A stretch of 64,000 nucleotides of DNA from Muricauda sp. MAR_2010_75. Lineage in GTDB: Bacteria; Bacteroidota; Bacteroidia; Flavobacteriales; Flavobacteriaceae. The stretch is taken from the NCBI RefSeq assembly GCF_000745185.1, contig NZ_JQNJ01000001.1, forward strand, positions 2,069,501 through 2,133,500, in the 5' to 3' direction. The first letter of the stretch is position 1. Every line of letters begins with the position of its first letter. Position numbers and translations under genes: made by a program. The notes under the pieces are model-generated. The model did not search any database and was not told the origin of the DNA. It saw only the letters and a program-made list of their open reading frames with translations. Below, in pieces: positions 21,295 through 47,566 of this stretch.

Positions 21295-22470
21295 ATGAAT
21301 AGAATGTGCATTTCGAAGACAACCTTTTACATCCAAACAATCCTCCTTTTGGTGTGTACTTATCCGCTTTTTTCTCAGCAAAAAGAGGAAGGGGCATTAT
21401 GGATGCCTATGGATTATACAATACAACGTATTTCCAGTTATGATGTAACTGGAGCTAACGACGATGGAAATTGGAAAAACAAGATCAAGCCTGGAGAGAC
21501 TCGAACTATAGGAGATGTAATTGGGCCTGGAATTATCAAGCATATTTGGGTTACTATAGCGAGTGGGGAATACTATCATCTTAAAAAAATAGTTCTCAGG
21601 ATTTATTGGGATGGTGAAAACAACCCAAGTGTTGAAACTCCTATAGGGGACTTTTTTGGGCTTGGTTTGGGGAAATACAATTTGTATGAGTCTAAATTTA
21701 CTTCTGTGGGTTCGCAAAGGGCACTCAATGCCTATTTTCCTATGCCCTTTAAAAAATCTGCAAAAATTACCATTACCAATGAAGGAGATGAGGCCATAGG
21801 TGCATTTTATTATAACATCGACTGGGAGAAACATAAATCCTTGCCAGATGAAACCCTTTATTTCCATGCACAATACAGGCAGGAAACCCCAACAGACGGA
21901 TGGACAAATGATTGGGAACGTAATAGCGATTCTATTGTCAACAATCATAAAAATCCTAAAGGCGAAGGGAATTACATGATTATGGAAGCTAAAGGAAAAG
22001 GACATTTTCTTGGTGTAACCCATAGTATCATCCAAAATCAAGGTGATTGGTGGGGAGAAGGAGATGAAATGATATTCATAGATGGTGCAGAGGATGCACA
22101 GATTAAAGGAACCGGAGCGGAAGATTATTATCTCGGAGCTTGGTGTTATGGTGGATGCGGAATCAATCCTTTTGGCAATGATAAGCCTGAATTTGCTTAT
22201 GACAGCTATGGCAACCCGTTGAACGGTGGTGATGATAGGGGGGCGCAGTGGACCGTTTATCGTTTTCATGATGAGTCACCGGTAACATTTACCAAGTCGA
22301 TTAAAATGACCATAGAGCATGGACATGCCAACCATAGGTCTGATAATTATTATACGGTGGGCTATTGGTACCAGACAGAACCTCATATGCCTTTCCCAAA
22401 ATTACCCGAGGTTAAAGAACGTTTACCAAATGTCAAAAATACAGAGGGACCAACTTTTGGTAAAAACTAA
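21295..22470 (+). CDS. GH172 (DUF2961) glycosidase, candidate exo-alpha-D-arabinofuranosidase (copy a)
   Basis: The 391 residues start with a signal peptide (to about residue 27, ...YPLFSQQ) and contain a DUF2961 domain, now GH172. Characterized GH172 enzymes act on alpha-D-arabinofuranosides or alpha-D-fructofuranosides by retention. Two conserved acidic motifs are present: GEGDE (Glu255) and GTGAEDYY, about 21 residues later, matching the proposed nucleophile and acid/base. IYWDGENNPSVETPIGDFFG is also characteristic. The signal peptide places it in the periplasm or outside. It is followed 9 bp later by a lipoprotein gene and preceded by two LacI-type operators. Sugar specificity is inferred from the locus. 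Confidence 0.88.
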   Translation: MNRMCISKTTFYIQTILLLVCTYPLFSQQKEEGALWMPMDYTIQRISSYDVTGANDDGNWKNKIKPGETRTIGDVIGPGIIKHIWVTIASGEYYHLKKIVLRIYWDGENNPSVETPIGDFFGLGLGKYNLYESKFTSVGSQRALNAYFPMPFKKSAKITITNEGDEAIGAFYYNIDWEKHKSLPDETLYFHAQYRQETPTDGWTNDWERNSDSIVNNHKNPKGEGNYMIMEAKGKGHFLGVTHSIIQNQGDWWGEGDEMIFIDGAEDAQIKGTGAEDYYLGAWCYGGCGINPFGNDKPEFAYDSYGNPLNGGDDRGAQWTVYRFHDESPVTFTKSIKMTIEHGHANHRSDNYYTVGYWYQTEPHMPFPKLPEVKERLPNVKNTEGPTFGKN

Positions 22471-22479
22471 TAAAGATTT

Positions 22480-23601
22480 ATGGTAACCATAGAAATTATA
22501 AAAATATTGACTTTGAATTTATTTGCTAGATTATTAAAAACCACTATGCCGGTATTTTGTATGACGCTCTTGGCCATATCTGTGAATTCCTGTAACTCAA
22601 AGAATGAGAAGGCCAATGATGGAGATGCTCAAGAGACCTACTCACATAATTGGATAACGCCCAATGCTGACGGAGGAGACTGCATACCTGTCTGGGGACA
22701 CCATGACGGTATCAGAATTGGTCTTGCACCGACAGGTGGGCCACGTGGACTTTTGCGTGTATATGCGCCTTACCTGAATCTAAGTACAGATTCGTTGAAG
22801 ATGATAAACTTCATTGCCTTGGAACCCATTATATCTGGTGGTGATTCAAGAGGTTTCTCGGAATTGGAGCCCAGTACACTTGACAATGTTAGGGGAAAGC
22901 GGTTTTGGAGTGCAAATAGAGCCGATGCCATTGAACCTCGATCTGTTCAAGATTGTGCATCGGGGGTAATAGAGCAGGTCAATGGGAGGGAGGCCCTAAC
23001 ACTTTATGTTCATTCAGAAGAATTTGATTCTGGTGCCAAAGTATATGTCCGGGTCCGGTTTTATGAAGATAGCCCTTATGAGATTGAACTTACATCCTAT
23101 ACTGCCGAGGAGTCGGCCCCATTGGATAATTTTATACTTACCGCAACCATGGGAAACTTTGCAAGGTTAAGAAATTTATATCTCAAAGATGGCATAAAAT
23201 CATCATGGGTATTGTGGCCGGATTATAGGGACAGCAATTTTACCCCACATGATTATACCTCGGTAAGCAATATGTTGGAGGATAAGAATGGGTCAGTTTA
23301 TTTTGTAGCGGCACCCAATGAGGATGACCCTACTGCTGTTACATATTCCTCGGATACAAAAGAACATTGGAAATACAAGGGACAGAAGGCTACCCAATAT
23401 TGGAAAAAACTAAACCCCAGTCCCAATTTAAATGGATTGGTGAATGGAAGATATGCCTATTGGGCCAGTGAATCACCAATCCCTGGAGGGATTTCATATG
23501 AAAATTTTGAATTGAAAGAACCCTTTAAAAATGGATCTGTATTTTATTTTGGGGTCAGCCCTTTGGACCCAGAAACCTTTATTGGTTCAATTGAAAAATA
23601 A
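22480..23601 (+). CDS. uncharacterized lipoprotein paired with GH172a
   Basis: A likely lipoprotein with lipobox SVNSC. The start at 22546 (MPVFCMTLLAISVNSC) gives a cleaner signal peptide than 22480. The body is about 330 residues of beta-rich sequence (LRVYAPYLNLSTDSLKMINF, YVRVRFYEDSPYEIELTSY, ISYENFELKEPFKNGSVFYF), suggesting a beta-sandwich or mutarotase-like fold. I do not recognise the family and see no catalytic motif. Its position 9 bp after GH172a parallels the GH172b plus lipoprotein pair at 40388-42783, but the two lipoproteins do not look alike. A role in binding or anomer handling is speculation. Confidence 0.75.
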   Translation: MVTIEIIKILTLNLFARLLKTTMPVFCMTLLAISVNSCNSKNEKANDGDAQETYSHNWITPNADGGDCIPVWGHHDGIRIGLAPTGGPRGLLRVYAPYLNLSTDSLKMINFIALEPIISGGDSRGFSELEPSTLDNVRGKRFWSANRADAIEPRSVQDCASGVIEQVNGREALTLYVHSEEFDSGAKVYVRVRFYEDSPYEIELTSYTAEESAPLDNFILTATMGNFARLRNLYLKDGIKSSWVLWPDYRDSNFTPHDYTSVSNMLEDKNGSVYFVAAPNEDDPTAVTYSSDTKEHWKYKGQKATQYWKKLNPSPNLNGLVNGRYAYWASESPIPGGISYENFELKEPFKNGSVFYFGVSPLDPETFIGSIEK

Positions 23602-23907
23602 GAATATGAATGTTCCGCACAAAATAACATGACCTTGCTGCGCAATGAATTTTATGGAAAAGCAGGGCATTAAAAGTAAGTTTATTTAGTTGTTTGAGTT
23701 AGTTAGGCATGCAAAGTTGGTTTTCCCTTTTGAAAGTTTACGCTTTTAAGCATTACTTTCTTGATAAATACGTTTCAACCAATTTATTTTTGGGAAACCA
23801 GCTTTCTGCATGTTAGTAAAGACTTCTCTTGTTCAATTTGTTTCTGTTGAAATTTTCCTTTTGGAAGTATGATGTCAACAGAGAGTTCATTTAGAAAGTT
23901 TTAGTTA
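23602..23907. other. spacer with no supported feature
   Basis: About 300 AT-rich bases between the lipoprotein gene and the LacI-type fragment. No gene, clear operator or hairpin terminator was found. Confidence 0.4.
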
Positions 23908-24339: not shown

Positions 24340-26523
24340 TCAAGGGTTTTTATCTATCATAAAATCAGTTCCATAATGATCCCTGATACGGCCATACGCT
24401 TCTGAAGCAGCCCCATTGCCCCAATCGTAAATGGTAAAATCTCCAATGCCTAGGCCATCTTTTGAAGTAGTACCATTATGGCCATAATTTTCCATCGTAA
24501 ATCCATAGTCCTCTTTCCCAAAATGGGGGTGTTTGGACTCCCACTGTGTCTTGGTCTGCGGGTTCTCCGGGCAATACATCATCACAAAAGAGGCTCTAAG
24601 TGCCGCAAGCCCACGTTGCACATACTCTTTGGACCCCAATTCCTTTCCATACTTAATGATCAGTTCGGCGAACAGGCTCTGTCTAGCATCGTTCCATTCT
24701 GCATCGGCATTCATAACACCAAAACCTCCAAAGGTTTTTACATACATATAGGGAGGTTGCCATGTGGCTTGTGTCATTAGCAATTCATCCAATACAACTT
24801 GTCCATGATCCAAGTATTTTTGTTGTCCTGTAATTTGAAATGCCTCATAAAGTGCCTCAGAAGTCCAGAAAGTGGATAAATTGTTTTGTTTGAACATGTT
24901 GTTCCGTCCAATTTTTTTGTTGACCAGGTCAATGTTTCCATAACTGGAGCATGACCAATATGTTTCAAAGTCTTCCCATCTTCCAACTGGTACAACTTCT
25001 TTGATGAGTATATCAATTGCTTTTAGTGCAGCATCCCTGTATTTTGTATTCTTGGTGGTTTTATAGGCATTGAACAAAAATGTAGCTGACATGGCCGTTT
25101 CGGGTGATTGGTCCAGAATTCCCATGGGCTCATGAGTTCTTACTGAAATCCATCCGGGAAAGTACCCTTTTTTATCTTGTAGTTCCAAGAGCTGCTCGGC
25201 ATAGGTTATGGCATAGTCGAGCAATCTTGGATCCTTTTCCAGGTCCATATACCATAATAGCATTTGGTTCGCTGTCCAACTCATGTCCAAAATATGGTAA
25301 GGGGAATCATCGGGATTGCCCCAATGAATACCCTCAATTTGTGTAGGGTTCATAAATGGATTACGGTTGGAGTTTCCAAAATAGTGGGTATCCCATCCCT
25401 TGGACTTACGAAATGTACTTCCTTCAACAGTTGTATCTTTCATTTTGGTTGCGATTATTCCTGGGAAAAAACCGTTTTCTTGGGGGAACAACAAAGCCAA
25501 TTCCTTGGTCATGATGGCTTTTTCCATCAATAGGGTATCTCTTTTTCTTTTTGCGTAGCGGAAAAGGCCAGATGCGGAACGCAAAGAACTAAACCATGCT
25601 TGGTTCCAAATGGATTTGAATTCCCTCTCGAAAGGAGGTTTTTCATAGTTTGGGCTTTGACTCACATTTACAATAAAAGTGGGTGCGCCAACTTTTTTGC
25701 CCTTAAGTTCGAATTCCTGCCATACCACACCCTTCCAATCTTGAAAGGCCCATTGATAGGTGTGATCCACATATTTTTCCAAATCTATAGTTCCCAAGGG
25801 CTCCCTTTTTTTGTATAGTTTTTCACCAAATGAATCCCAATAGAAGGCCAAGATATCCCGCCATGGGTTCTTAGTCTGGTCCAACGTGTTACTTGCTTTT
25901 ATATAAAATGAAAAATTATAGACATCGGGCTTGTAAACGGTACCACCCTCTTTGACATAGAGAACATGTTCTTGAACTTTTGATTTACTCCAACCTAAAA
26001 TCATTTCGTTGTTTTCCGCATTCAAATCCATATACCATTTGGGACCGGATGCGGCAATTGACCGTAATTCAGGGAAAACCGCCAATCTTTGATTGTTCAC
26101 TTTTTCGGTCATAATCATGGCCGGTGCCCTAAAGACATGTTGGGGAACAATATGGCTGTCTGTGGGTGTCAAATGGGGAGACCAGTGAAAATCTGGTTGG
26201 AACGATGGCCGAATGGTAACTTTCCAATCGTCATCGTTCAAAAGCTCATCGACCGTAAAATTTATATTGATTCGGATTGTGCTGCTGTCAATGATATCAA
26301 GTCCTGTTTTTGGATTTATTCCTCCCAAAGATTCTATCTCAATATTTTCTATCAAATTTTTAAAGAGAGACGGTGCCTCAGTGCGACCAATATCCAAAAA
26401 GGGATCTTGATTGTTTGATTGACAGCCAGCCAAAACCAAAACTGAGAGCAATATGGGTTTTATCTGAATCAAGGTACTTGTTCGCTTAAATAAGGTATAA
26501 AATTGACTGATATATAAAATCAT
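24340..26523 (-). CDS. large lipoprotein with (alpha/alpha)6-barrel-like glycosidase features
   Basis: The 727 residues carry a lipobox (VLVLAGC, Cys34 from this start; the true start may be later). An N-terminal beta-rich domain of about 270 residues (VRININFTVDELLNDDDWKV ... FYIKASNTLDQTKNPW) resembles carbohydrate-binding or family-9-like modules. The C-terminal half has repeated helix pairs (DYAITYAEQLLELQDKKGYF, SATFLFNAYKTTKNTKYRDA, ASFVMMYCPENPQTKTQ) as in six-hairpin glycosidases. I cannot assign a GH family. It is the last gene of the susC operon next to GH183, so a role in cutting side chains or arabinan oligosaccharides is plausible. A possible new glycosidase family. Confidence 0.7.
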   Translation of the reverse strand: MILYISQFYTLFKRTSTLIQIKPILLSVLVLAGCQSNNQDPFLDIGRTEAPSLFKNLIENIEIESLGGINPKTGLDIIDSSTIRININFTVDELLNDDDWKVTIRPSFQPDFHWSPHLTPTDSHIVPQHVFRAPAMIMTEKVNNQRLAVFPELRSIAASGPKWYMDLNAENNEMILGWSKSKVQEHVLYVKEGGTVYKPDVYNFSFYIKASNTLDQTKNPWRDILAFYWDSFGEKLYKKREPLGTIDLEKYVDHTYQWAFQDWKGVVWQEFELKGKKVGAPTFIVNVSQSPNYEKPPFEREFKSIWNQAWFSSLRSASGLFRYAKRKRDTLLMEKAIMTKELALLFPQENGFFPGIIATKMKDTTVEGSTFRKSKGWDTHYFGNSNRNPFMNPTQIEGIHWGNPDDSPYHILDMSWTANQMLLWYMDLEKDPRLLDYAITYAEQLLELQDKKGYFPGWISVRTHEPMGILDQSPETAMSATFLFNAYKTTKNTKYRDAALKAIDILIKEVVPVGRWEDFETYWSCSSYGNIDLVNKKIGRNNMFKQNNLSTFWTSEALYEAFQITGQQKYLDHGQVVLDELLMTQATWQPPYMYVKTFGGFGVMNADAEWNDARQSLFAELIIKYGKELGSKEYVQRGLAALRASFVMMYCPENPQTKTQWESKHPHFGKEDYGFTMENYGHNGTTSKDGLGIGDFTIYDWGNGAASEAYGRIRDHYGTDFMIDKNP

Positions 26524-26562: not shown

Positions 26563-27735
26563 TTAGTTTTCAAGTTCCAAGGATGCTTTCATCAGAAAAA
26601 CATTGTAGGGTTGCCACATGGACATGGTAAAGTAAATATCACTTCCCGTAATACTTTTGGGATGCATAAATGATCCATACATTATTGGATAGGTTTCAGG
26701 GTCTGCGATGATTTTTTCCTCAGACCACACACCATTGATATGTTCGGCAGTGCGCATAACCACTTTTTGATCTTTGTTTGAATGCCTGGTATATAGGGTG
26801 ATCCAAAGTTTAAATTTTTCATTGTAAATCAGCGAAATTTCACCAACGGGTGCTGGAAAAATTGGGGCAGCCATTGTATCATCCCCTTTGACCCATTTCT
26901 TTTTCATCCCTAAATACTCAAACTTTGAGAGATTGGGGAAATTTTCCTCGCTCACTTTGGCCAAATAAGCAGGGCCCTTTCTTCCAGATTTAGTACCTAT
27001 CATATAAATCATGCCATTTTTTTTAGCAAATGCCATTTGGGCAAATTTGCTATCACACTTAAAATGGACACCTTTCACCTTGGACCACGAATGGCCTTCA
27101 TCATTTGATTTGTAGATGGATGAATGATTGGTGGTCCATTCGCCTGGAGCATCCCATGACCTGACGTTCATATAATGCACATATTCTGTGCCAGCAATGC
27201 TAATGGCCGCGGTAGGAATGGAGGTCCAATCTCCTGTACCTATAGTGTCATGGGCGCTTAGTATTACTTCCTTTGCGTGACCTTTGGAGTTGGCCAACAT
27301 TGTGGAAAAAGTCAAGCCATCTTCCAAAATGGAATCTGTGGAGAAAGCCAATACATTGGAACGCCATGATCCCCCACTGGGACCTCCTCTAGGTGAGGCC
27401 TTAAAATCACTTCCGTAGGTATCCCCAAAGAAAGATCCTACCTTACCATTGTCCATTTTCCAAAAAATACCCAAATCGGTACCGCCCACATTATATTTTT
27501 GATGTGTCATGTTCGGATTTGCCAATACTTCGTCCTTTAAGGAAGCTCCTGTAACCCTAGCAAGGCGTTCGCAATACACTACCTTTAAACGCTTGTTCGA
27601 GTTGGGTTGCACACTATCAGAAATGGATTGTTTCATACCCTGTTCCTGACCATTGCAAGGAGCTTTGTGCCCTAAAAAGAAAAATACCAAGAGAACTGAT
27701 TTCAATAAAGACTTTATCAAATTTTTGTACATCAT
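26563..27735 (-). CDS. GH183 (DUF4185) candidate endo-D-arabinanase
   Basis: The 390 residues have a signal peptide (LLVFFFLGHKAPCNGQEQ) and a DUF4185 domain. Diagnostic segments are VGGTDLGIFWKMDNGKVGSF, FGDTYGSDF, WRSNVLAFSTD, SIPTAAISIAGTEYVHYMNV and SSIYKSNDEGHSWSKV, forming a five-bladed-propeller-type pattern. Members of DUF4185 were shown to be endo-acting D-arabinanases on mycobacterial arabinan and became GH183; I rely on recollection of that work. It is in the susC operon, 65 bp after the VCBS gene and 39 bp before the helical-barrel gene. This is the key gene for the D-arabinan reading. The catalytic residues are not known to me. Confidence 0.82.
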   Translation of the reverse strand: MMYKNLIKSLLKSVLLVFFFLGHKAPCNGQEQGMKQSISDSVQPNSNKRLKVVYCERLARVTGASLKDEVLANPNMTHQKYNVGGTDLGIFWKMDNGKVGSFFGDTYGSDFKASPRGGPSGGSWRSNVLAFSTDSILEDGLTFSTMLANSKGHAKEVILSAHDTIGTGDWTSIPTAAISIAGTEYVHYMNVRSWDAPGEWTTNHSSIYKSNDEGHSWSKVKGVHFKCDSKFAQMAFAKKNGMIYMIGTKSGRKGPAYLAKVSEENFPNLSKFEYLGMKKKWVKGDDTMAAPIFPAPVGEISLIYNEKFKLWITLYTRHSNKDQKVVMRTAEHINGVWSEEKIIADPETYPIMYGSFMHPKSITGSDIYFTMSMWQPYNVFLMKASLELEN

Positions 27736-27800: not shown

Positions 27801-30800
27801 CTACCTTTGATATATTTGAAGAGAATCATTGTTGTTCGTGATCAATATAAGGTCACCCGATAATCGATGGACCAAATTGATATGTCTACTGTCCTTTGGG
27901 ATGTTGATTCCTGATTTTGTTGGTGCTATAGGGGTAAAGTTGGAAGAACCATCCCCCAATAATAGACAGCCCAATCCAGAATCATACCTAATGGTTTCGA
28001 CTTCTACACCATAGTGATTTCCCACGACTAAAATGTCCATATGCCCATCGTTGTTGAAATCGCCGGTCAGGGATGATTTGATGGGAAATATTTGGGCCTC
28101 TGTCGGTAGCGGCTTTTGAATGAATTTATCTCCAGTATTAATTAAAATAATACTCTCCAAACTTTGAATCTCATGAAGTACGGCGCTCCCAATTCTTTCT
28201 TCTGGTAATATATCGGTAAGTTTAGATGAGGCATAACTGTGGTAATCCTTGAACTTGTTAGCTATATAGGGCATTTGGTTGCTCATACATTCACGTCCCC
28301 GTAAGGGAACATAGGCGTCTTTGTATTCTTTGGCCAACACAATGTCATTGGTGCCATTTTTGTCAAAATCGTCGGCATAGATTCGTAAAGGTTGGGCTTT
28401 GGTAGGTTTAAATTTATTATTCAGCCCAAGATTACCGACTACAAAATCTTCATCCCCGTCGTTATCGATATCCGCCGCAGTAATGGACCACCATATCCCT
28501 TTTGTTTTTTGTAGACCCCATTTCTCGGAATTGTCCACGAAGTGACCGTTGCTATTTTCAAGAAGTATAATGTTCATCCATTCACCTACTAGAAGAATGT
28601 CCATGTCCCCATCGCCATCAATATCAGAAAAGGTAGCATCTGAGACCAACCCTATATTGGCTAGGGCAGGTGCAATTTCAGTGGTCTTGTCTATATATTT
28701 TCCATCCTCGTTTATAAAAAGGTGACTACTTGCCGGATGTGGATATCGGCCGGGAACGAGGCGGGTTCCCACCAGCAGATCCAGATCGCCGTCTTTGTCA
28801 ATATCAGAAGCCCTTGCACATTGGCTGCTTACATATTTTTCTGGAAGTATATCCCTGTCATGATGAAATGTGCCCACTCCATTATTGATATACACTCTGT
28901 CTTCCAATAATTTGGAACCCTGACTGAACTCGTTTCCACCGCTCGCAATGAAAAGGTCCATGTCGTTATCGCCATCCACATCTAGGAAAATGCACCCGAG
29001 ATCTTCAGATTCTTTCTCCATTTCCCATGGCTGTGAGGGGTTCAGGGCAAAAGAGCCATCCTCTTTTTGGATGAACAACCTTCCTGATTGTCCACTGGCA
29101 CCACCGATGAAGACATCTTCAAGCCCATCACCATTTATGTCGGCAATGGCAGAAAAGGGGCCGTTCTCGGATAACCGGTGCGGTAAAAGTGTCTCTTCCT
29201 GAAAGTCGTTGTACTCATTTTCCTTATGGACGAACCTTAATCCGATGGAAGTTGGATTTATGCCAGAAAACATTTTGGACTTGACTCTTTCCTTTACTTT
29301 GTTGGTTTCAGCATTTTTATGCCGTACCACAATTGAGGTGTTGGGCATTGGGTCTTCAATTATGTTACGTTTGCCATCTGGCCATAGGACCTCTAATCTT
29401 TCAATTTTCTTTTCATTTCCCAAACCAAATAGGATGCTAGGTTCCATAGAGGATAGGTAACCCCTTGAAACATAATTCTCTGCACTTTGGAATTGGCCAC
29501 TATGGTAGAGGAGTGCTTTGGCACCATAACCAAACAAATTGTCTCTCGGTCCCTCAAAATACAACTTCAAGAAATTTCCACCCGTTGTGTTTCTGTATAC
29601 AAATGCGGGGGCATCAATGTTGTTTGTAATTATATCCATATCACCATCGTTGTCCAAATCACCATAAGCGATTCCAGTGGTAAACCCGGATTGATCAAAG
29701 CCCCATTCTTTTGACTCTTTTTTGAAGCGGAATCTCCCTTCGTTTTTAAAAATGTAATTGGGAAGGGGAACGGAAGGGGCATCTTTGCTGGCTTCCAAAA
29801 GATTTAAGGGGCCTTTTTCAATCTTTTTGCTGACCTTGTTTAAAAAGTCATTGTTACGGATGTCCTTTTTAATCCCATTGGAGACTACAATGTCCCTAAG
29901 GCCATCATTATCAAGGTCCACGAGCAATCCTGACCAACTCCAATCTGTCTTTGCCATCCCGGCTAAATTTCCAACATCGTAGAAATTTCCCTCACCGGAA
30001 TTTATCTGCAAGGTATTGAACATGTATTGCCGATGCTTGCCCCATTCCACAAGCTGGAAGAATTCTTTTGGGTTCATGGAGCCCATATTGGTCTTTGATC
30101 TATAATGGTCTTCAGCGGCCATATCCAAGGTTATCAGATCGGTATGACCGTCGTTGTTAACGTCTCCGGCATCAACACCCATACTGAACCTTGAAATGTG
30201 CCTTAATTTTTGGTCAATCACATTGCTGAAAGTGCCATCCCCATTATTGTAGTACATAAAGTCTGGTTCATCGTAGTCGTTGCTCACATACAGGTCCGTC
30301 CATCCATCATTGTTAAAGTCACTTGCTACAACACCAAGCCCATGGGTCAGTGACTGCGATAGGGTAGCTTTTTGAGAAATTTCTTTATATTTTCCGCCAT
30401 CGTTTCTATATAATTTATCCCGATGATAGACCGCTCTTGACCTTGGAATTTTATAGCGTAAAAACAATCTAGGGTCAGGAGGCTGGTTTACCTGATACAT
30501 ATCAAGATCACCATCATTATCCATATCAAAGAAAATCGCTTGGGTTGAGAACCCCTTATCGGCCAATCCGTAAACTTGTGCAGATTCGGTGAAGCTGAGA
30601 TCTTTATTATTGATATATAACAGATTTGCCCGATCATCTGGATTCATGGAATCCCCATTTCTGCTAATATAAATATCAAGATAACCGTCGGAATTTACAT
30701 CGGCCATGGTTACTCCCATGGACCAACCAGGATTTGACCCGATTCCTGCTGTTTGCGTGATATTCTTAAACTTGAAACTGCCTTCGTTCAAGTACAGTTG

Positions 30801-36267: not shown

Positions 36268-36395
36268 TTTTACATAGTTATTATTAGTTTGATTAATCAT
36301 GAAGGTTATTTAATGTGCTGGTCGTTCATTGGTTTAAAAAATCTCCTGCCCTAAAGGTTAAACAGCTAAAGTGCTTGCTTAATCAATATGTTTAT

Positions 36396-36487
36396 TTAAT
36401 CGTTTAAGTAAATTTATATTAAACGTTTAAGTAATTAAATCAAATGTATAGGTATATATTTATTTTAACAAAAAAATTTTGTTAAAA
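36396..36487 (-). promoter_or_regulatory. susC operon promoter with two LacI-type operators
   Basis: On the minus strand the -33 box TTTG (36472-36469) and -7 box TACATTTG (36448-36441, fits TAnnTTTG) are 20 bases apart. Operator TTAAACGTTTAA (36419-36430) covers the predicted start site, and a one-mismatch copy TTAATCGTTTAA is at 36396-36407. An independent perfect inverted repeat (11-bp arms, 36463-36473 and 36477-36487) overlaps the -33 box and could bind a second regulator. The rest of 36301-36790 has no gene. Confidence 0.75.
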
Positions 36488-38875: not shown

Positions 38876-38901
38876 TTTAAACGTTTAAATTATCAAACAT
38901 A
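38876..38901 (-). promoter_or_regulatory. GH97 promoter -7 box with LacI-type operator
   Basis: On the minus strand the -7 box TATGTTTG is at 38901-38894 (perfect TAnnTTTG). Directly downstream is the 16-bp palindrome ATTTAAACGTTTAAAT (38875-38890), over the expected start of transcription, 63 bp before the GH97 ATG. A clear -33 box was not found. Confidence 0.72.
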
Positions 38902-39156: not shown

Positions 39157-39214
39157 TTTGGTATCATGTGTTCTTATTGATACTTTGCAATTCAAATTAT
39201 ATTTAAACGTTTAA
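39157..39214 (+). promoter_or_regulatory. lacI promoter with operator (autoregulation)
   Basis: The -33 box TTTG is at 39157-39160 and a near-consensus -7 box TACTTTG at 39181-39187, 20 bases apart. Operator TTAAACGTTTAA is at 39203-39214, 13 bp before the lacI ATG and downstream of the expected start site. The repressor probably limits its own synthesis. Confidence 0.7.
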
Positions 39215-39227
39215 GACACATCCGCCC

Positions 39228-40235
39228 ATGAAAAAAAAGACGTCCCTTAAAGATATTGCAAAAGAAGCGGGTGTTTCCATTGCCACGGTTTCATATGTCC
39301 TTTCAAAACAAGAAAACAGTGGTGTAAGCCAAGAGGTATCTGATAGAATTAAAGAAATAGCCAAAAGGCTGAATTATAGACCCAATCAAATAGCTAAGAG
39401 CCTTCAAAGTGGTAAAAGTCAGACCATTGGGTTGATTGTGGCTGATATTTCAAACCCATTTTTCGCACAAATTGCAAGAATTGTGGAAGATGAAGCTAAG
39501 AAATATGGATATACGGTCATTTTTGGAAGTTCTGATGAGAAGGCGACCAAATCTCATGATTTGATCAAGTTTTTATTGAACAGACAAGTTGATGGATTTA
39601 TCATTACTCCAACTGAAGGCTCGGAAAGCCAGATTGAGCTCTTGAAAGAGCAAAACATTCCATTTGTACTTATTGACCGCTATTTTCCCAACATTGAAAC
39701 CAACTATGTGGCCATTGATAATTATCAGGCGGCTTTTGACGCCACCAAAAAGTTGATGGATAATGGAAAAAAGCGAATAGGTATGATTGCCTATTCCACA
39801 GAATTGTATCACATGAAAGAACGGATAAAGGGACATAAGGACGCCCTAGGTGATGGGGTTTATGATACATCCTTGTTACAGGAGGTTGCCTTTGATAAGA
39901 TTGTGGAGAACATGCCTAAAGCCATTGAAAATTTGGTCAAAGGAAACGAACCGGTGGATGCCATTTTTTTTGCGACCAACACCTTGGGAGTAATTGGTCT
40001 CAAGTATCTTGATGAATTGAAACTTCAAGTTCCAGATGATGTCGCAGTTATTGTTTTTGACGAAAGTGAGGTATTTCACTTCTTTTATTGCCCATTGACC
40101 TACGTAAAACAACCATTATCTGATTTAGCCAAAATGGCGGTAACCGTTCTTTTAAACCACATAAAGGACTCAAATGCCAAGACAGACAAGGTAAAATTGA
40201 ATGCTAAGCTTGTAATTGGGAATTCCAGTAATTAA
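39228..40235 (+). CDS. LacI-family transcriptional regulator of the arabinan locus
   Basis: A full-length 335-residue LacI/GalR protein: helix-turn-helix and hinge (SLKDIAKEAGVSIATVSYVL ... LNYRPNQIAKSLQSGKSQTI), then the periplasmic-binding-protein-like ligand domain (GLIVADISNPFFAQIARIVE; VDGFIITPTEGSES; PFVLIDRYFP; DAIFFATNTLGVIG). It lies between the divergent GH97 gene and the catabolic operon. The palindrome TTAAACGTTTAA occurs at its own promoter and at each other unit, so it is the likely regulator. The inducer is unknown; D-arabinose, D-ribulose or an arabinan oligosaccharide would fit. Repression is inferred from operators overlapping promoter boxes. Confidence 0.93.
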   Translation: MKKKTSLKDIAKEAGVSIATVSYVLSKQENSGVSQEVSDRIKEIAKRLNYRPNQIAKSLQSGKSQTIGLIVADISNPFFAQIARIVEDEAKKYGYTVIFGSSDEKATKSHDLIKFLLNRQVDGFIITPTEGSESQIELLKEQNIPFVLIDRYFPNIETNYVAIDNYQAAFDATKKLMDNGKKRIGMIAYSTELYHMKERIKGHKDALGDGVYDTSLLQEVAFDKIVENMPKAIENLVKGNEPVDAIFFATNTLGVIGLKYLDELKLQVPDDVAVIVFDESEVFHFFYCPLTYVKQPLSDLAKMAVTVLLNHIKDSNAKTDKVKLNAKLVIGNSSN

Positions 40236-40300: not shown

Positions 40301-40329
40301 TTTGTTTAAACGTTTAAATAGTATATTTG
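40301..40329 (+). promoter_or_regulatory. GH172b-fucI operon promoter with embedded LacI-type operator
   Basis: The -33 box TTTG (40301-40304) and perfect -7 box TATATTTG (40322-40329) are 17 bases apart. The 14-bp palindrome TTTAAACGTTTAAA (40305-40318) fills the spacer between them. A bound repressor would directly block RNA polymerase. The start codon is 59 bp downstream. Confidence 0.82.
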
Positions 40330-40387: not shown

Positions 40388-41545
40388 ATGAAAAAAAGAA
40401 GAGGTTTTGTCCTGATATCACTAGTTGCTATGTTTTGTTTCCATTTAGGTTCTACGTATGCTCAGACCACGAATGGGCTGGGATCCAATCTGGGAAACAT
40501 TTTTACCTTATCAGATGCAAAAACACGATCCATTAGCCCGGAAAATTTCACTGGGGAGAAAGGCAAAGGAGGCATGGCCGAGTTGGGAAATGGAACAGGA
40601 AGCCACGCGGCCCGAGAATTGGGACAAGGCTGGAAAGTTAGTCCGTCCGTAAAGATTGCTCCGGGAGAAACTTTCACTCTTGCTGATATAGATGATGAGG
40701 GTGCCATTCAGCATATTTGGATGACTCCAACAGGAAATTGGCGATTCTCTATTCTTCGATTCTATTGGGATGGCGAAAAAGAGCCTTCTGTTGAGGTTCC
40801 CGTAGGGGATTTCTTTGGAATGGGCTGGGGTGAGTATACTCCTTTAAATTCATTGCCTATTACCGTCAACCCAGGTAGTGCGTTCAACTCTTATTGGCCC
40901 ATGCCTTTCCGAAAAAATTGTAGGATTACAATGGAAAACATTGGTACAGAGGAAATGTACCTCTATTATCAGATAGACTATACCTTAACCGATGTTCCGG
41001 ACGATGCTGCCTATTTTCATGCCCAGTTTAGAAGAAGCAATCCTACCGAAGGTGCTCTCTATACCTTAGTGGATGGAATAAAGGGAAAAGGTCATTATGT
41101 GGGTACCTATATGGCTTGGCAGGTCAACAACCGAGGTTGGTGGGGTGAAGGTGAAATCAAGTTTTTCATGGATGGGGATAAAAAGTTTCCGACCATAGCG
41201 GGGACAGGAACCGAAGACTACTTTTTGGGTTCATACAATTTTGAAAACAAAAGAAAAAGGGAGTATGAGAATTACTCCACCCCCTATGCGGGTCTACACC
41301 AAATTATTAGGCCAGATGGACTATATGATTCCCAACAGCGTTTTGGACTTTACCGTTGGCACATTCAAGACCCTATAAGGTTTGATAAGGACCTAAAGGT
41401 TACCATTCAAGACTTGGGATGGCGCAGCGATCATAGGTATTTACAGCAAAAATCCGATATAAGTTCAGTTGTGTTTTGGTATCAAGCCGAACCCCATGCC
41501 AAATTCCCAGCGCTTCCAGCCAAAAACGAACTTGAAGTGAATTAG
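40388..41545 (+). CDS. GH172 (DUF2961) glycosidase, candidate exo-alpha-D-arabinofuranosidase (copy b)
   Basis: The 385-residue secreted protein (signal peptide ...FHLGSTYAQ) has a DUF2961/GH172 domain. Motifs: FYWDGEKEPSVEVPVGDFFG, FNSYWPMPFRK, WWGEGEIKFFMDGD (Glu254) and GTGTEDYFLGSYNF. They are closer to the classic family motifs than those of copy a (GTGAEDYY). The two copies are clearly divergent, so they may split the work between linkages or between polymer ends and short oligosaccharides. First gene of a tight five-gene operon; the next start is 2 bp away. Confidence 0.9.
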   Translation: MKKRRGFVLISLVAMFCFHLGSTYAQTTNGLGSNLGNIFTLSDAKTRSISPENFTGEKGKGGMAELGNGTGSHAARELGQGWKVSPSVKIAPGETFTLADIDDEGAIQHIWMTPTGNWRFSILRFYWDGEKEPSVEVPVGDFFGMGWGEYTPLNSLPITVNPGSAFNSYWPMPFRKNCRITMENIGTEEMYLYYQIDYTLTDVPDDAAYFHAQFRRSNPTEGALYTLVDGIKGKGHYVGTYMAWQVNNRGWWGEGEIKFFMDGDKKFPTIAGTGTEDYFLGSYNFENKRKREYENYSTPYAGLHQIIRPDGLYDSQQRFGLYRWHIQDPIRFDKDLKVTIQDLGWRSDHRYLQQKSDISSVVFWYQAEPHAKFPALPAKNELEVN

Positions 41546-41547: not shown

Positions 41548-42783
41548 ATGTTAAAAAGGCAACTGTTTTTTGCAATAGCAATCACTTTTTTGATTACGGT
41601 ATCCTGTAAAGATCACGGTAAAAAAGATTCAAAGACTGAGACCATGGACAAAGATGATACTTTTATGGAAGGCTCTTTTGGTTATGATATAGATTTTCTT
41701 AAAAAATGGGATTCCAATCTCATTATATTGAAATCAGAGAACGCCTCAGTGGCGGTGTCGGGTAAATATCAGGCCAAGGTATTTACTTCCAGTGTATCTG
41801 GTAATGAAGGAAGGAGTATGGGATGGATCAACTATGATGCATTTGGAAAGAACGACCCACACATGAATGCATTTGGAGGGGAGAGTAGATTGTGGTTGGG
41901 GCCTGAAGGAAATGCTTTTTCCCTTTTCTTCAAACCAGGGACGGACATGATATTTGAAAATTGGAAAACCCCACCCCCAATTGATAGTGAAGATTGGGAT
42001 GTAACCGAAGAGAGTGAAACTTCCGTAGCCTTCGAAAGAACCATGGAGATTGAAAACTATGCGGGTCATAAACTCAATATCCGTGCCCAACGAATAGTCA
42101 AAATTTTGAGTGCCGAACATATGGAAGAATTGCTCGGAGTACAGACAAAGGGAGTCAAATCAGTGGGGTATAAAACAAAGAACACTATCACCAATATTGG
42201 TGATTTTGAATGGACGAAGAGTACTGGGGCTCCCTGTATCTGGATATTGGATATGTTCCCGCCATCAGAAGAAACAACTATTTTCATTCCGTATAAAAAG
42301 GAAGGTGCGGGGCCTATTGCCACTACCGACTATTTTGGAGAAATTGCTGAGGATAGAATTGGCTATGATGACGGTATTTTGTTCTTCAAAGCTGATGGCA
42401 AATCCAGAGGTAAACTGGGCATACCACCCCAGAGAGCCACTTCCATGGCCGGAAGCTATGATGCACACAATAATGTTTTGACCATAACCCTTTTCGATGT
42501 GGATTCCGATGCCACTTATCTTAATCAAGAGTGGAATCTGGAAGGAGAACCTTTTTTGGGTGACGCTGTCAATGCATACAATGACGGTCCATTGGAGGAT
42601 GGTTCCCAAATGGGTCCATTTTATGAGTTGGAAAGTGTGTCCCCGGCTGCATTTATTAAACCCAATGAATCGCTTTCCCATAACCATACGGTTTTTCACT
42701 TAACTGGAAAGAAAGAAAATCTAGAACAGATTGTAGAAGAAGTATTTGGAACTACTCTAGAGCTAATAACAAATTTTTTATAG
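41548..42783 (+). CDS. lipoprotein with galactose-mutarotase-like fold (DUF6786-like)
   Basis: The 411-residue lipoprotein (lipobox ITVSC) is mostly beta-rich. MGWINYDAFGKNDPHMNAFG, then GESRLWLGPEGNAFSLFFKP, recalls proteins named DUF6786, which I associate with the mutarotase-like superfamily (from memory). It could equilibrate sugar anomers or help present arabinose to the cell; no catalytic His/Glu pair can be assigned. It follows GH172b by 2 bp and precedes fucI by 12 bp, so it belongs to the same transcript. Confidence 0.65.
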   Translation: MLKRQLFFAIAITFLITVSCKDHGKKDSKTETMDKDDTFMEGSFGYDIDFLKKWDSNLIILKSENASVAVSGKYQAKVFTSSVSGNEGRSMGWINYDAFGKNDPHMNAFGGESRLWLGPEGNAFSLFFKPGTDMIFENWKTPPPIDSEDWDVTEESETSVAFERTMEIENYAGHKLNIRAQRIVKILSAEHMEELLGVQTKGVKSVGYKTKNTITNIGDFEWTKSTGAPCIWILDMFPPSEETTIFIPYKKEGAGPIATTDYFGEIAEDRIGYDDGILFFKADGKSRGKLGIPPQRATSMAGSYDAHNNVLTITLFDVDSDATYLNQEWNLEGEPFLGDAVNAYNDGPLEDGSQMGPFYELESVSPAAFIKPNESLSHNHTVFHLTGKKENLEQIVEEVFGTTLELITNFL

Positions 42784-42795: not shown

Positions 42796-44574
42796 ATGAC
42801 CAAGAAAAACAATTATCCAAAAATAGGTATCCGTCCAATTATAGATGGAAGGCTAGGTGGAGTAAGGGAGTCCTTAGAGGCAACTACCATGAACATGGCC
42901 AAGAACGTCGCCAAGCTTTTCAGTGAGCAGCTGAAGTATCCGGACGGTAGCCCAGTGGAATGTATCATTCCAGACTTTTGTATTGGCGGTGTAAAGGAAG
43001 CTGTGGAATGTGGAGCGTTTTTTAGTGCCCAAAATGTTGGGGTGTCGCTGTCTGTTACACCCTGCTGGTGCTATGGGACCGAGACCATGGATATGGATCC
43101 ACAACTTCCAAAAGCTATTTGGGGTTTCAATGGTACCGAACGACCAGGTGCGGTATATCTGGCGGCAACCTTGGCCGCACACAACCAAAAAGGTCTTCCT
43201 GCCTTTGGGATATATGGCGAAGATGTCCAAGATCTTGATGACAGCCAGATCACTGAAGATGTGAAAAAGAAACTCTTGTCATTTGCCAGAGCAGGAATGG
43301 CGGTAGCCTTAATGAAAAACCGTAGCTACTTGGCCATTGGAAGCGTTTCCATGGGGATAGCCGGTTCCATGATAGACCCTGACTTTTTTCAGGACTATTT
43401 GGGCATGCGTAACGAATATGTGGACTCCTCAGAGGTACTCCGACGTATTGAACATGAAATCTACGACAAGGAAGAGTTTGCAAAAGCACTGGAGTGGACC
43501 AAGAATAACTGTCGTGAAGGTCAAGATTTCAACGAGAAAGAAAAACAGAGGAGCACCGAACAAAAGGAAGAGGATTGGGAGTTTGTGGTGAAGATGACCC
43601 TTATTATCCGGGATTTGATGGAAGGCAATCCAAAATTGAAGAAGATTGGGTATGGGGAGGAATCTCATGGCCACGATGCCTTGGTCTCGGGTTTCCAAGG
43701 GCAACGACAATGGACTGATTTTCTACCAAACGGGGACTTTTCAGAAGCTATACTGAACTCCTCCTTTGATTGGAACGGAATCAGGGCGCCCTATATGGTG
43801 GCCACTGAAAACGATGCTCTTAACGGTGTTTCCATGTTATTCAATTATTTATTGACCAATACGGCACAGATATTTGCCGATGTTCGTACCTATTGGAGTC
43901 CCAGCGCAGTCAAAAGGGTTACTGGATGGCAGCCCGATGGAATAGCATCGGAAGGCTTCATCCACCTGATAAACTCAGGGTCCGCCACCTTGGACGGTAC
44001 AGGTCAACAAAGTAAAGATGGAAAGCCTGTAATGAAATCATTTTGGGAGATAGACCAAAATGAAGTGGATGCTTGCCTAAAGGCAACCACATGGTACCCG
44101 GCCAATCTTGGATATTTTCGGGGAGGTGGTTTCTCATCAAACTTTCTTACAAAAGGGGGGATGCCCGTTACCATGTGCAGATTGAACCTTATTAAAGGTT
44201 TGGGCCCCGTACTTCAGATAGCAGAGGGCCACTCCATTGACTTACCAGAACATGTCCATAAAACCTTGGACGAAAGAACGGACCGTACTTGGCCAACAAC
44301 CTGGTTTGTTCCCAAGACAACGGGAAAAGGGGCATTTGCCAATGTGTATTCAGTGATGAACAACTGGGGATCCAACCACGGGGCCATCAGTTATGGACAC
44401 ATTGGGCACGACCTTATTACCATGGCCTCAATACTTCGTATTCCTGTTTGTATGCACAATGTTGAGGAAGAGCGAATCTTTAGACCATCAGCATGGAATG
44501 CACAGGGAATGGACAAAGAAGGTTCCGACTATAGGGCCTGCAAGAATTATGGACCGATATACGGAATGAAATAG
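42796..44574 (+). CDS. fucI: L-fucose / D-arabinose isomerase
   Basis: The 592 residues match FucI (E. coli 591). FucI interconverts aldose and ketose for L-fucose and, equally well known, D-arabinose to D-ribulose. The Mn site residues align in number with the E. coli enzyme: Glu338 in ATENDALNG, Asp362 in IFADVRTYW, and His528 in [16 protein letters not shown]. Next to a ribulokinase, and without fuculokinase or fuculose-phosphate aldolase, the likely job here is D-arabinose to D-ribulose. It is cytoplasmic and third in the operon. Family secure; substrate choice is inference. Confidence 0.95.
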
Positions 44575-44582: not shown

Positions 44583-45878
44583 ATGAAAAGTAAAAAAAGT
44601 TTGGAGAAAAATATCCCCGTTACCATGCCAGGTAATAAATGGCCCTTTATTCTCATTACCAGCTTATTCTTTTTGTGGGGACTGGCCAATAATATGACAG
44701 ATACGCTTTTAGCAGCGTTCAAGCGTATTATGAGCATGACCGATTTTCAGACCTCATGGATTCAGATGGCCTTCTATGGATCATACTTTTTGCTGGCTTT
44801 GCCAGCGGCCATTCTTGTCAAGAAGTATTCATACAAAACAGGAGTTCTAGTGGGTCTGGGACTATTTATAATAGGTGCCCTTCTTTTTTATCCAGCCAGC
44901 ATCAGTATGGTGTATGGTCATTTTTTGGCTGCACTTTTCATTTTAGCTGGTGGACTCTCCATTTTGGAAACTGCGGCCAATCCCTATATCATATCGATGG
45001 GGCCTGAGGAAACGGCAACAAGAAGACTCAATTTAGCCCAATCTTTCAATCCCATTGGAAGTATTACCGGAATATTGCTCAGCAAGATTTTCATCCTTTC
45101 CAATTTAAACCTATTGGACGCCGATGAAAGGGCATCCATGGCACCGCAGGAACTAAAAGCAATTCAATCTGAGGAGTTGACATCGGTTATGGGCACTTAT
45201 GTTGGGGTGGCCTTTTTCTTGCTGGTCATCTGGATATTGGTAAAGGTAACAAAGATGCCTATGGCAAAGGATAAAGTGAAAAAAATGGACATTTTGGGTT
45301 CTATAAAGAGACTTTTGGGCAATCGGAATTATTGCTGGGCGGTAACGGCACAATTTTTTTATATGGGTGCCCAAATAGGGCTTTGGTCCTATACCATTCG
45401 TTATGCAATGCAAGAGTTGAGCAAAAGTGAAGATGATGCCTCTGTTTACTATTTGGCATCCATAATACTGTTTTCTAGTTCAAGGTTTGTCTTTACAGCC
45501 TTAATGAAATATGTTGCTCCAAGAAGGTTATTGTTTATTGCCTCGGTGTTGGGAGTAATTTGTACGTTGACAGTTATCTATGGCTCTGGAATGGTCGGTG
45601 TAACTGCACTAATTCTGGCATCGGGATGCATGTCTTTAATGTTCCCGACGATTTATGGATTGGGAATGCAGAAATTGGGCAATGATTCAAAAATAGGAGG
45701 ATCAGGACTGATTATGGCCATTTTGGGTGGTGCTGTTCTCACAAGTGTGCAAGGTATCGTTTCTGATGGCTTCGGAAGCATCAACGTTTCGTTTTATGTA
45801 CCCTTGGTTTGTTTTCTTGTGGTAGCTCTTTATTCCAGAGTACAAAAGAACCTTCAACTTAACGAAACTACAAACTAA
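44583..45878 (+). CDS. fucP: FucP-type sugar:proton symporter (MFS)
   Basis: The 431-residue major facilitator protein has 12 membrane helices and FucP features: FFLWGLANNMTDTLLAAFKR (Asp in helix 1), LSILETAANPYIISMGP (Glu-Asn-Pro segment in helix 4) and a second half with AQFFYMGAQIGLWSYTIRY. E. coli FucP carries L-fucose and also D-arabinose across the inner membrane. Here D-arabinose import is the natural reading. It lies between fucI and the ribulokinase, with 8- and 14-bp gaps. Confidence 0.93.
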   Translation: MKSKKSLEKNIPVTMPGNKWPFILITSLFFLWGLANNMTDTLLAAFKRIMSMTDFQTSWIQMAFYGSYFLLALPAAILVKKYSYKTGVLVGLGLFIIGALLFYPASISMVYGHFLAALFILAGGLSILETAANPYIISMGPEETATRRLNLAQSFNPIGSITGILLSKIFILSNLNLLDADERASMAPQELKAIQSEELTSVMGTYVGVAFFLLVIWILVKVTKMPMAKDKVKKMDILGSIKRLLGNRNYCWAVTAQFFYMGAQIGLWSYTIRYAMQELSKSEDDASVYYLASIILFSSSRFVFTALMKYVAPRRLLFIASVLGVICTLTVIYGSGMVGVTALILASGCMSLMFPTIYGLGMQKLGNDSKIGGSGLIMAILGGAVLTSVQGIVSDGFGSINVSFYVPLVCFLVVALYSRVQKNLQLNETTN

Positions 45879-45892
45879 ATAGAGGAACACCT

Positions 45893-47566
45893 ATGGCAAG
45901 CGATGATTATGTGATCGGTGTTGATTTTGGCACAGGATCGGTGAGGGCACTTTTGGTAAACGCACATAATGGAGATGAAATGGCTTTCTCCGAATTTGAG
46001 TATCCAAGATGGAAAAAAGGGATGTATTGTGATGCAGTACTGAATCAATTTAGGCAACATCCATTGGATTATATCGAGGGCCTGGAACATACCGTCTCCA
46101 GTGTCGCAGAACAAGTGGGAGCTGACATTGTAGAAAAAGTCAGGGCCATTTCGGTGGATACTACTGGCTCTACACCTGTGGCAGTTGATAAAACGGGGCA
46201 ACCTTTGGCGTTGCAACAAAAATTTGAGCATAATCCCAATGCCATGTTCATTTTATGGAAGGACCACAGTGCCATGAAGGAAGCTGACGAAATCAATACT
46301 CATGCTACTAATTTTGATCAGGATTATCTCAAATATTCAGGGGGCATTTACTCGTCAGAATGGTTCTGGGCTAAATTACTGTATGTATTAAGAGTAGATA
46401 AGGATGTCGCCAAATCCTGCTTCACCTGGGTTGAACATTGTGATTGGATACCATTTTTGTTGACCGGTGGCAATGATGCCAAAAAAATAAAGAGAGGGGT
46501 TTGCGCTGCAGGACACAAGGCCCTTTGGGCAGATGAACATGGAGGTTTGCCCCCAAAAGAATTCTTTACCACTTTGGCCCCTGTGTTGGAGAACTTGGAA
46601 CATCCTCTTTTTACTACAACCTTTAATTCAGATAAATCTGTTGGGAACCTATCACAAGAATGGGCCAAAAGACTTGGGCTCTCCACTAATGTTTTGATAG
46701 GCGTAGGTGCTTTGGATGCCCATGTTGGAGCAGTTGGGGGACAGATTGAACCCTTTTATCTCAGTAAAGTCATGGGCACATCTACCTGTGATATGATGGT
46801 AGTGCCTACAAGTGATGATATAGCCATGGTTAGAGGAATATGTGGTCAAGTACGGGACTCCATTGTTCCCGGAATGGTTGGTCTTGAAGCTGGACAGTCC
46901 GCTTTTGGCGATGTATATGCGTGGTTTCAGGAACTCTTGGTCTCAACAGGGTTAAAGGCAATTCGCAATAAATCCATGGACCTGGGCATAAAGGCCGAAC
47001 TAGAACAAGAAATAACCCATCAACTATTGGAGCAACTAGGGAAGGAAGCCTCTAATCTTCCTCTGGAAGAAAATTCAGAAATGGCCATTGATTGGTTCAA
47101 CGGTAGAAGAACACCAGATGCCAACCCCTATGTAAAAGGAACGTTACTCAATCTTAATTTAGGAAGTGATGCCGCCAGAATATATAGGGCACTTGTGGAA
47201 AGTACGTGTTTTGGGGCCAAAATTATTGTGGACCATTTTGAGAAAAATAATATCTCATTAAAAGGAGTTATTGCTTTGGGAGGAGTGGCAAGAAAATCAG
47301 ACTATGTAATGCAAATGATGTCCAATGTATTGAACCTACCGGTTAAGGTTCACAACTCGGAACAAACCTGTGCTATGGGTGCTTGTATGTTCGCGTCCGT
47401 GGTGGGAAACATTCACAATGATGTGGAAGAAGCTATGACAAAAATGGGGAAAGGTTATGATAAGAGCTTTATGCCCGAATCTGATAGGGTGGAGACTCAC
47501 AAAAGAAGATACAATGTATATAAAAAACAGGGAGTCTTTCAAGAGAGGATATTAAATAAAGAGTAG
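45893..47566 (+). CDS. araB: ribulokinase, AraB type (predicted D-ribulokinase role)
   Basis: The 557-residue FGGY carbohydrate kinase (E. coli AraB is 566) starts VIGVDFGTGSVRALLV (phosphate 1 motif). It has ISVDTTGSTPVAVDK, WKDHSAMKEADEIN, GALDAHVGAVGGQ, and a late adenosine motif, IALGGVARKSDYVMQMMSNV. AraB enzymes phosphorylate L- and D-ribulose. With FucI upstream and no AraA, AraD or epimerase, the expected reaction is D-ribulose to D-ribulose-5-phosphate, which enters the pentose phosphate pathway directly. Last gene of the operon. Confidence 0.92.
   Translation: MASDDYVIGVDFGTGSVRALLVNAHNGDEMAFSEFEYPRWKKGMYCDAVLNQFRQHPLDYIEGLEHTVSSVAEQVGADIVEKVRAISVDTTGSTPVAVDKTGQPLALQQKFEHNPNAMFILWKDHSAMKEADEINTHATNFDQDYLKYSGGIYSSEWFWAKLLYVLRVDKDVAKSCFTWVEHCDWIPFLLTGGNDAKKIKRGVCAAGHKALWADEHGGLPPKEFFTTLAPVLENLEHPLFTTTFNSDKSVGNLSQEWAKRLGLSTNVLIGVGALDAHVGAVGGQIEPFYLSKVMGTSTCDMMVVPTSDDIAMVRGICGQVRDSIVPGMVGLEAGQSAFGDVYAWFQELLVSTGLKAIRNKSMDLGIKAELEQEITHQLLEQLGKEASNLPLEENSEMAIDWFNGRRTPDANPYVKGTLLNLNLGSDAARIYRALVESTCFGAKIIVDHFEKNNISLKGVIALGGVARKSDYVMQMMSNVLNLPVKVHNSEQTCAMGACMFASVVGNIHNDVEEAMTKMGKGYDKSFMPESDRVETHKRRYNVYKKQGVFQERILNKE

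Follow-up and report, generated by a model that had tools for sequence, protein, structure and literature searches.

What glycan is a flavobacterial locus built to consume when it combines GH172 and GH183 glycoside hydrolases with FucI, FucP, and a ribulokinase-like enzyme? The question is raised by a stretch of 64,000 nucleotides from Muricauda sp. MAR_2010_75 (hereafter the window; bases 2,069,501-2,133,500 of a genome that forms one contig of 4,424,696 bases), the proteins of which have their nearest named relatives in Allomuricauda, Muricauda, and Flagellimonas. With a probability of roughly 85%, we read the locus as a LacI-controlled polysaccharide utilization locus (PUL) that is carried on an element in tRNA-Leu(TAG), acts on an α-D-arabinofuranose-containing glycan, and feeds D-ribulose-5-phosphate into metabolism. 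Gene content, family membership, conserved residues, the operator pattern, and the ends of the element were computed, and we infer substrates, localization, order of steps, and inducer.

A first-pass annotation of the same DNA had proposed a complete, island-borne D-arabinan to D-ribulose-5-phosphate pathway comprising two DUF2961 proteins, one DUF4185 protein, SusC/SusD, FucI, FucP, and an AraB-type kinase under a shared operator. Each of these genes lies where it had been placed (Table 1) and passes a curated profile, the kinase with a qualification given below. Three products did not figure in that annotation: a 727-residue protein, a 373-residue protein, and a DUF6786 protein.

Candidate enzymes acting on the glycan

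A SusC/SusD pair, glycan-active enzymes, and a regulator occur together, as in PULs of the Bacteroidota. The check proposed with the first-pass annotation, a profile comparison of the presumed hydrolases, came out clearly in its favor, with scores well above cut-offs and active-site residues kept: the DUF2961 profile PF11175 gives 257.7 bits for GH172 A and 325 bits for GH172 B (cut-off 27), and the DUF4185 profile PF13810 gives 316.5 bits for the GH183 protein (cut-off 39.5).

The GH183 protein aligns with EndoMA1 at 199.5 bits. In that enzyme, roles are assigned to Asp33 (nucleophile), Asp51 (acid/base), Glu243 (third acidic residue), and Arg198 (PMC10509167). All four are kept in the island protein, as Asp87, Asp105, Glu299, and Arg252, respectively, and they are invariant across 20 aligned sequences, the window's own included. 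On the strength of these residues, the product is a candidate GH183 endo-D-arabinanase.

The two GH172 proteins differ in their closest solved relatives. GH172 B scores 427 bits against the exo-α-D-arabinofuranosidase ExoMA1 and 138-145 bits against the other three solved GH172 proteins, whereas GH172 A scores 219-221 bits against those three (DgGH172c, 4kq7, and αFFase1) and 109 bits against ExoMA1. Both keep a Glu pair aligned with Glu270/Glu291 of αFFase1, which we take to be the catalytic pair. A further position bears on selectivity: Gly299 of αFFase1 admits fructose, and Asn253 of ExoMA1 blocks it (PMC10509167). Here GH172 A has Cys284, as do DgGH172c and 4kq7, and GH172 B has Asn284, like ExoMA1. 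Lacking the Gly, both proteins would prefer α-D-arabinofuranosides to α-D-fructofuranosides by this sequence criterion; DgGH172c is described as an active α-D-arabinofuranosidase (PMC10115798).

Proposed route from D-arabinose to D-ribulose-5-phosphate

FucI scores 1058.4 bits against TIGR01089 (cut-off 850). Its Glu338, Asp362, and His528 align with identical residues of two solved isomerases and are presumably the metal-site residues, in agreement with the earlier claim that these are intact. The best solved relative by sequence is the D-arabinose isomerase 3a9r, at 975 bits, but the solved relatives leave the substrate unsettled because L-fucose isomerases score 871-911 bits beside it. FucP reaches 470.8 bits against TIGR00885 (cut-off 280.4) and falls below the Escherichia coli-type model NF007524 (334.6 versus a cut-off of 427).

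The remainder of the genome is more informative. No FucA was found in the complete sequence, its sole Aldolase_II match being AraD, which lies in an araB-araD-araA operon elsewhere on the chromosome, separate from the island. Nor was a FucK found: none of the four FGGY kinases (GlpK, an XylB-like protein, the chromosomal AraB, and the island kinase) exceeds the TIGR02628 cut-off of 470.9, the best score being 105.4. L-Fuculose formed by FucI would therefore have no detectable exit, and the genome favors D-arabinose as the substrate.

The description of the kinase as AraB-type stands in part: it passes the broad ribulokinase model NF003154 (672.2 bits; cut-off 428) but does not reach the L-ribulokinase equivalog TIGR01234 (559 versus 583.25), for which the chromosomal AraB scores 618.2. 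A tree of 50 kinases included AraB proteins of the genus (the 30 best matches that were fetched), all 30 with AraD adjacent and none with FucI or FucP in its flanks. These 30 fall on one side of a branch with support of 100/100. Nine FucI-linked kinases of the genus split off with support of 96/79 (the second value just below the mark of 80), and 11 kinases from GH183 loci of other Bacteroidota are set apart with 100/98; for nine of these 11, the stretch fetched includes FucI, the exceptions being L012 and L022. Because the tree is midpoint-drawn, without an outgroup, a common origin of the two FucI-linked groups cannot be read from it. Its profile scores and tree position make the island kinase a putative D-ribulose 5-kinase. 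D-Ribulose phosphorylated at O5 is an intermediate of the pentose phosphate pathway.

The DUF6786 protein encoded immediately upstream of FucI has, in its predicted structure, a mutarotase/aldose-1-epimerase-like fold, an assignment that is new here.

Operator and regulon

The shared operator proposed in the first-pass annotation is borne out by counting. With up to two mismatches allowed and strands counted separately, the 13-mer TTTAAACGTTTAA matches the window 16 times where 5.25 matches are expected, and the largest count among 100 shuffles was 14; 14 of the 16 correspond to the operator sites of Table 1 and two lie elsewhere. The exact 14-mer WTTAAACGTTTAAW occurs at three places in the whole genome, all within the island. 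At up to one mismatch there are 12 genomic places (five in the island) against eight for the reversed control, so that only the exact form is specific. The palindrome precedes five start codons, at 21295, 36300, 38812, 39228, and 40388.

An exact 12-base core was also sought in 14 stretches, comprising loci of relatives and the genome's own araBAD region. It precedes lacI, DUF6786, GH172, GH97, or susC genes in loci L133-L136, DUF6786 in L132, both GH172 A and a further pair of DUF4185 genes in L105, and susC in L141 and L194 (the latter overlapping L135); L137, L138, L139, L140, L193, and L104 contain no exact copy. This conserved operator regulon is an addition of the present analysis.

The integrative element

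The locus lies on an integrative element of ~36.3 kb that is inserted in tRNA-Leu(TAG) and bounded by the two halves of the split gene. The split falls in the anticodon region, and both halves share the 14-base core GACTTAGGATCTAG, whose copies at 12894 and 49163 are 36,269 bases apart. Close to the left border, within the element, lies a complete replacement tRNA-Leu; a tyrosine integrase occupies the corresponding place at the right border.

DNA of the left flank was detected in 70 of the 71 genomes of the genus. Thirty such loci, the window's own included, were fetched, leaving 29 relatives for comparison: the tRNA is undisplaced in 21, indicating an empty site, displaced as in the window in seven, and unclear in one (L161), with 13 intact tRNA genes read directly. 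Three relatives (G033, G037, and G070) encode integrases 79-80% identical to that of the island with the same half tRNA near each, and in G033 the left half and the replacement tRNA are present as well. With an integrase at one end, a split tRNA at both, and empty sites in relatives, the element has the features of a tRNA-integrated element and, read from these, is probably mobile, as the first-pass annotation had held.

Four loci (L142, L143, L144, and L157) have such integrases adjoining the same half tRNA-Leu. The element of G033 is ~25 kb long, and in a blastn comparison of two stretches, it matches the island only at the left end and in short stretches. For that reason, the elements in tRNA-Leu probably belong to one family whose cargo can be exchanged. 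The island also contains remnants of mobile elements, namely genes for a transposase, a RadC-like protein, and SSB; the transposase at 15812-16588, which we take to be of the IS3 type, has an integrase-core domain and is preceded by a short frame resembling its first frame.

Occurrence in other genomes

A scan for GH183 in 84,980 species genomes gave 252 pattern matches and 235 confirmed relatives, the best 80 of which were kept and represent 78 loci. When up to 10 kb of flanking DNA is taken into account, FucI occurs in 19 of these best 78 loci, an AraB-type kinase in 11, and FucI, FucP, and kinase together in six; in two (L005 and L048), an ExoMA1-like GH172 and DUF6786 are added to these three. 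The gene combination therefore recurs in other Bacteroidota.

Among the 71 genomes of the genus, GH183 at full strength is found in two and any DUF4185 match in 10, FucI at >60% identity in 10 and any FucI match in 12, and GH172 in 13. A core of LacI, DUF6786, FucI, FucP, and kinase occurs at seven loci in six genomes (the window, L132, L133, L134, L135, L136, and L137), and in all seven GH172 lies in the same locus.

Two of the core genomes carry a different arrangement. In G047 (L134 and L227) and G038 (L136 and L225), the genes after the core are, in order, one of the sulfatase family, the SusC/SusD pair (operator core upstream of susC), another of sulfatase size, and one for a 707-residue GH172. 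In each genome, a single sulfatase was put to a profile scan and matched (L134:15278-16711 and L225:6861-8435), the counterpart in the other genome being named by position and length; the GH172 profile was matched at L225:8425-10548 and in both genomes. These could be PULs for a sulfated D-arabinofuranose glycan, and the sulfatase-family genes beside GH172 point to sulfated D-arabinose glycans as substrates in some members.

The exo-β step

The word "complete" in the first-pass annotation was too strong. Genes that would lead from arabinan to D-ribulose-5-phosphate are there, but the exo-β step is unproven: GH116 (PF04685), the exo-β-D-arabinofuranosidase employed by the published systems, has no match at an E-value of 0.001 in the complete genome, with a control search that found GH116 in three of 14 known genomes. 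Full breakdown would therefore need either another enzyme or a substrate without β caps.

The 727-residue protein, with a predicted N-terminal β-sandwich and an (α/α)6 barrel, is a candidate for the missing exo-β-D-arabinofuranosidase. Its family was found in the genus only in D-arabinan-type loci such as this one. A bolder proposal, which we consider doubtful, is that the protein founds a new family of D-arabinofuranoside-active glycosidases and supplies this genome's exo-β-D-arabinofuranosidase, the island thus being a transmissible and self-sufficient D-arabinan pathway within a wider D-arabinofuranose glycan cycle of marine flavobacteria, with sulfated substrates in some relatives.

In locus L193 of G007, a genome without any DUF4185 match, a FucI-linked kinase is followed directly by GH116, a CobW-type protein, GH172, and a member of the 727-residue family.

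Alternative explanations

Could FucI and FucP serve L-fucose, from fucoidan or fucosides, with GH172 and GH183 as mere neighbors? Both proteins do pass NCBIfam equivalog models for L-fucose, but the lack of detectable FucA and FucK described above, the fact that none of the 30 scanned proteins of the window belongs to a fucosidase or sulfatase family, and the presence of GH172 at every core locus of the genus make this very improbable. An equally slim chance attaches to the GH172 proteins being α-D-fructofuranosidases of the kind acting on caramel or difructose anhydrides, with the island directed at a fructan-like glycan. The near-equal scores of GH172 A against αFFase1 (221.3 bits) and DgGH172c (218.8 bits) are what this idea has to offer, to be set against Cys and Asn in place of Gly at the selectivity position, the ExoMA1-like character of GH172 B, and the want of a role for GH183 and FucI in fructose use. 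A real contender, though we lean slightly away from it, is a variant of the preferred explanation that keeps the same sugar pathway: a marine glycan, rather than mycobacterial-type arabinan, in which D-arabinofuranose forms side branches or is one sugar among several (α-galactose could be another). It would accommodate GH97, which has an operator site and is nearest to α-galactosidase-type structures (308.8 bits), as well as the missing GH116 and the sulfatase-containing core loci of G038 and G047. No sulfatase was detected among the 30 window proteins scanned, however, and since GH183 is known as an endo-D-arabinanase family, some run of D-arabinan is to be expected.

The preferred explanation, a PUL for an α-D-arabinofuranose-containing glycan, is well supported by protein families, active-site residues, the missing L-fucose lower pathway, and the seven GH172-bearing core loci. 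A number of observations nevertheless weigh against it. FucI, FucP, and kinases of this family serve for further sugars as well, and GH97 and the FG-GAP protein have no explanation in pure D-arabinan. With no GH116 found, complete digestion of β-capped mycobacterial arabinan is unproven. Four of the six core genomes lack GH183 at full strength (G007, G038, and G047 have no DUF4185 match; G031 has weak ones, at 41-47 bits). G054, which is 89% complete, has LacI, FucI (78% identity), and the start of the kinase on a 5.4-kb contig (L138); DUF6786 does not lie between them, and that incomplete genome yielded no match to GH172. G015, G039, and G060 have FucI at 63-67% identity and no GH172, and seven genomes have GH172 but no FucI above 60% identity. 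These genomes show that FucI and GH172 do not always go together. All of the support comes from sequence and predicted structure.

Proposed mechanism and significance

In the pathway that we envisage, exported GH183, assumed to be located at the surface, would cut the chain, and SusC/SusD would import the resulting oligosaccharides. Exported GH172 A and B would then free D-arabinose from the α ends, with the 727-residue barrel protein and GH97 perhaps clearing linkages that block them. DUF6786 may speed the interconversion of ring forms of D-arabinose, which FucP would import and FucI convert to D-ribulose; the FucI-linked kinase would form D-ribulose-5-phosphate for the pentose phosphate pathway. 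Relief of LacI at the palindromic operators would probably come from D-arabinose or one of its derivatives.

If this is correct, the use of D-arabinan spreads horizontally among bacteria of the Flagellimonas/Allomuricauda type, and their habitat must contain a D-arabinofuranose glycan, none being named in the literature found. The locus also supplies candidate enzymes for D-arabinan, of relevance to actinobacterial cell walls, a group of FucI-linked kinases as possible D-ribulokinases, a candidate function for DUF6786, which is a large family, and what may be a new family of glycosidases.

Relation to known systems

Pathways of this kind are already known, in bacteria of gut and soil, from two reports of 2023. 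PUL42 of Dysgonomonas gadei is likewise a Bacteroidota PUL with genes for fucose isomerase, GH172, and GH183; growth on D-arabinan makes its proteins abundant, and a fucose isomerase then tops the carbohydrate-active enzymes (PMC10115798). It has three GH172 proteins (PMC10115798), two GH183 proteins (DgGH4185a and b), and a putative GH116 (PMC10509167), whereas the island has two GH172 proteins, one GH183, and in addition GH97, and a search of its genome yielded no GH116. The 78 GH183 loci do not include D. gadei, but they do include Dysgonomonas sp. Marseille-P4677 (L008), with a GH116 catalytic region, DUF6786, the 727-residue family, a GH172-like protein, FucI, GH183, and kinase.

Microbacterium arabinogalactanolyticum (EndoMA1, ExoMA1, and ExoMA2) also combines a GH183 endo-enzyme and GH172 exo-enzymes with a putative isomerase and kinase, and a scheme from D-arabinose to D-ribulose-5-phosphate was published for this set (PMC10509167). 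That organism differs in being Gram-positive, with an ATP-binding cassette transporter, intracellular exo-enzymes, and GH116, in place of which the island has SusC/SusD and FucP and no GH116 that we could find. The novelty suggested by the first-pass annotation is reduced accordingly, although no report of a mobile or flavobacterial D-arabinan locus was found in a literature search of titles and abstracts, with subscription papers mostly outside its scope. What is new here is the mobile flavobacterial version, the operator regulon, the DUF6786 fold, and the 727-residue candidate.

Close relatives of the island are loci attributed to Muricauda sp. CP2A (L001/L105 and L133; NZ_LXTT01000054.1), with GH183 at 79% identity, the 727-residue protein at 84%, GH172 A at 89%, and GH172 B at 95%, together with DUF6786-FucI-FucP-kinase and the operator core. 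They differ in lying on several contigs, in having two further DUF4185 proteins, and in a second FucI-kinase locus (L132). The further DUF4185 genes (L105:7705-11388) each have the operator core on their 5' side, and one product is fused to ricin-type lectin domains and has a secretion tail.

Other features

Table 1. Features of the locus and of the element that carries it, in window coordinates
Feature	Position	Strand	Basis or remark
tRNA-Leu(TAG), original, 5' half; left island end	12864..12907	+	core GACTTAGGATCTAG at 12894-12907
tRNA-Leu(TAG), replacement, island-borne	12938..13020	+	ARAGORN
Two operator sites 5' of GH172 A gene	21067..21149	.	21067-21080 exact; 21136-21149
GH172 A (DUF2961)	21295..22470	+	Pfam profile; Cys284 at fructose/arabinose selectivity position
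373-residue protein	22480..23601	+	no Pfam or NCBIfam match
Second LacI regulator, remnant, 123 residues	23908..24279	+	profile scan
727-residue protein	24340..26523	-	predicted N-terminal β-sandwich and (α/α)6 barrel; candidate D-arabinofuranoside-active enzyme
GH183 (DUF4185), endo-D-arabinanase candidate	26563..27735	-	profile; Asp87, Asp105, Arg252, Glu299
FG-GAP/ASPIC-UnbV repeat protein, between SusD and GH183	27801..31124	-	profile
SusD-like glycan-binding protein	31284..33164	-	profile
SusC-like TonB-dependent transporter	33178..36300	-	profile
Two operator sites 5' of susC	36395..36431	.	36395-36408 with 1-2 mismatches; 36418-36431
GH97, nearest α-galactosidase-type structures	36791..38812	-	profile and structure comparison by sequence
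Operator site 5' of GH97 gene	38876..38889	.	exact
Operator site 5' of lacI	39202..39215	.	motif search
LacI-family island regulator	39228..40235	+	profile
Operator site 5' of GH172 B gene	40305..40318	.	exact
GH172 B (DUF2961), ExoMA1-like	40388..41545	+	Pfam profile; Asn284 at selectivity position
DUF6786 protein, predicted galactose-mutarotase/aldose-1-epimerase fold	41548..42783	+	profile and predicted structure
FucI, L-fucose/D-arabinose isomerase	42796..44574	+	profile, NCBIfam
FucP-type sugar symporter (major facilitator superfamily)	44583..45878	+	profile, NCBIfam
FGGY pentulokinase of FucI-linked group, inferred D-ribulose 5-kinase	45893..47566	+	profile, NCBIfam, tree
Tyrosine integrase of island	47738..48952	-	profile
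tRNA-Leu(TAG), original, 3' half; right island end	49163..49215	+	core at 49163-49176

The 373-residue protein matches neither a Pfam nor an NCBIfam family. Among the loci fetched, it has nine relatives, which are 49-86% identical to it; those in L001 and L105 represent a single locus. A truncated second LacI gene is flanked by the GH172 A operon on one side and by the gene for the 727-residue protein on the other, and this position suggests that the locus was put together from two pieces.

In G015, a FucI (67%)-kinase-LacI locus (L141) is accompanied by SusC/SusD and a sulfatase-family gene, with the operator core before susC, in a genome without GH172. Distant FucI-like genes (26-27% identity) adjoin ribulokinase-like genes in two further genomes (G008:C28:257029-260321 and G029:C1:47325-50577), where they possibly form another sugar isomerase-kinase pair.

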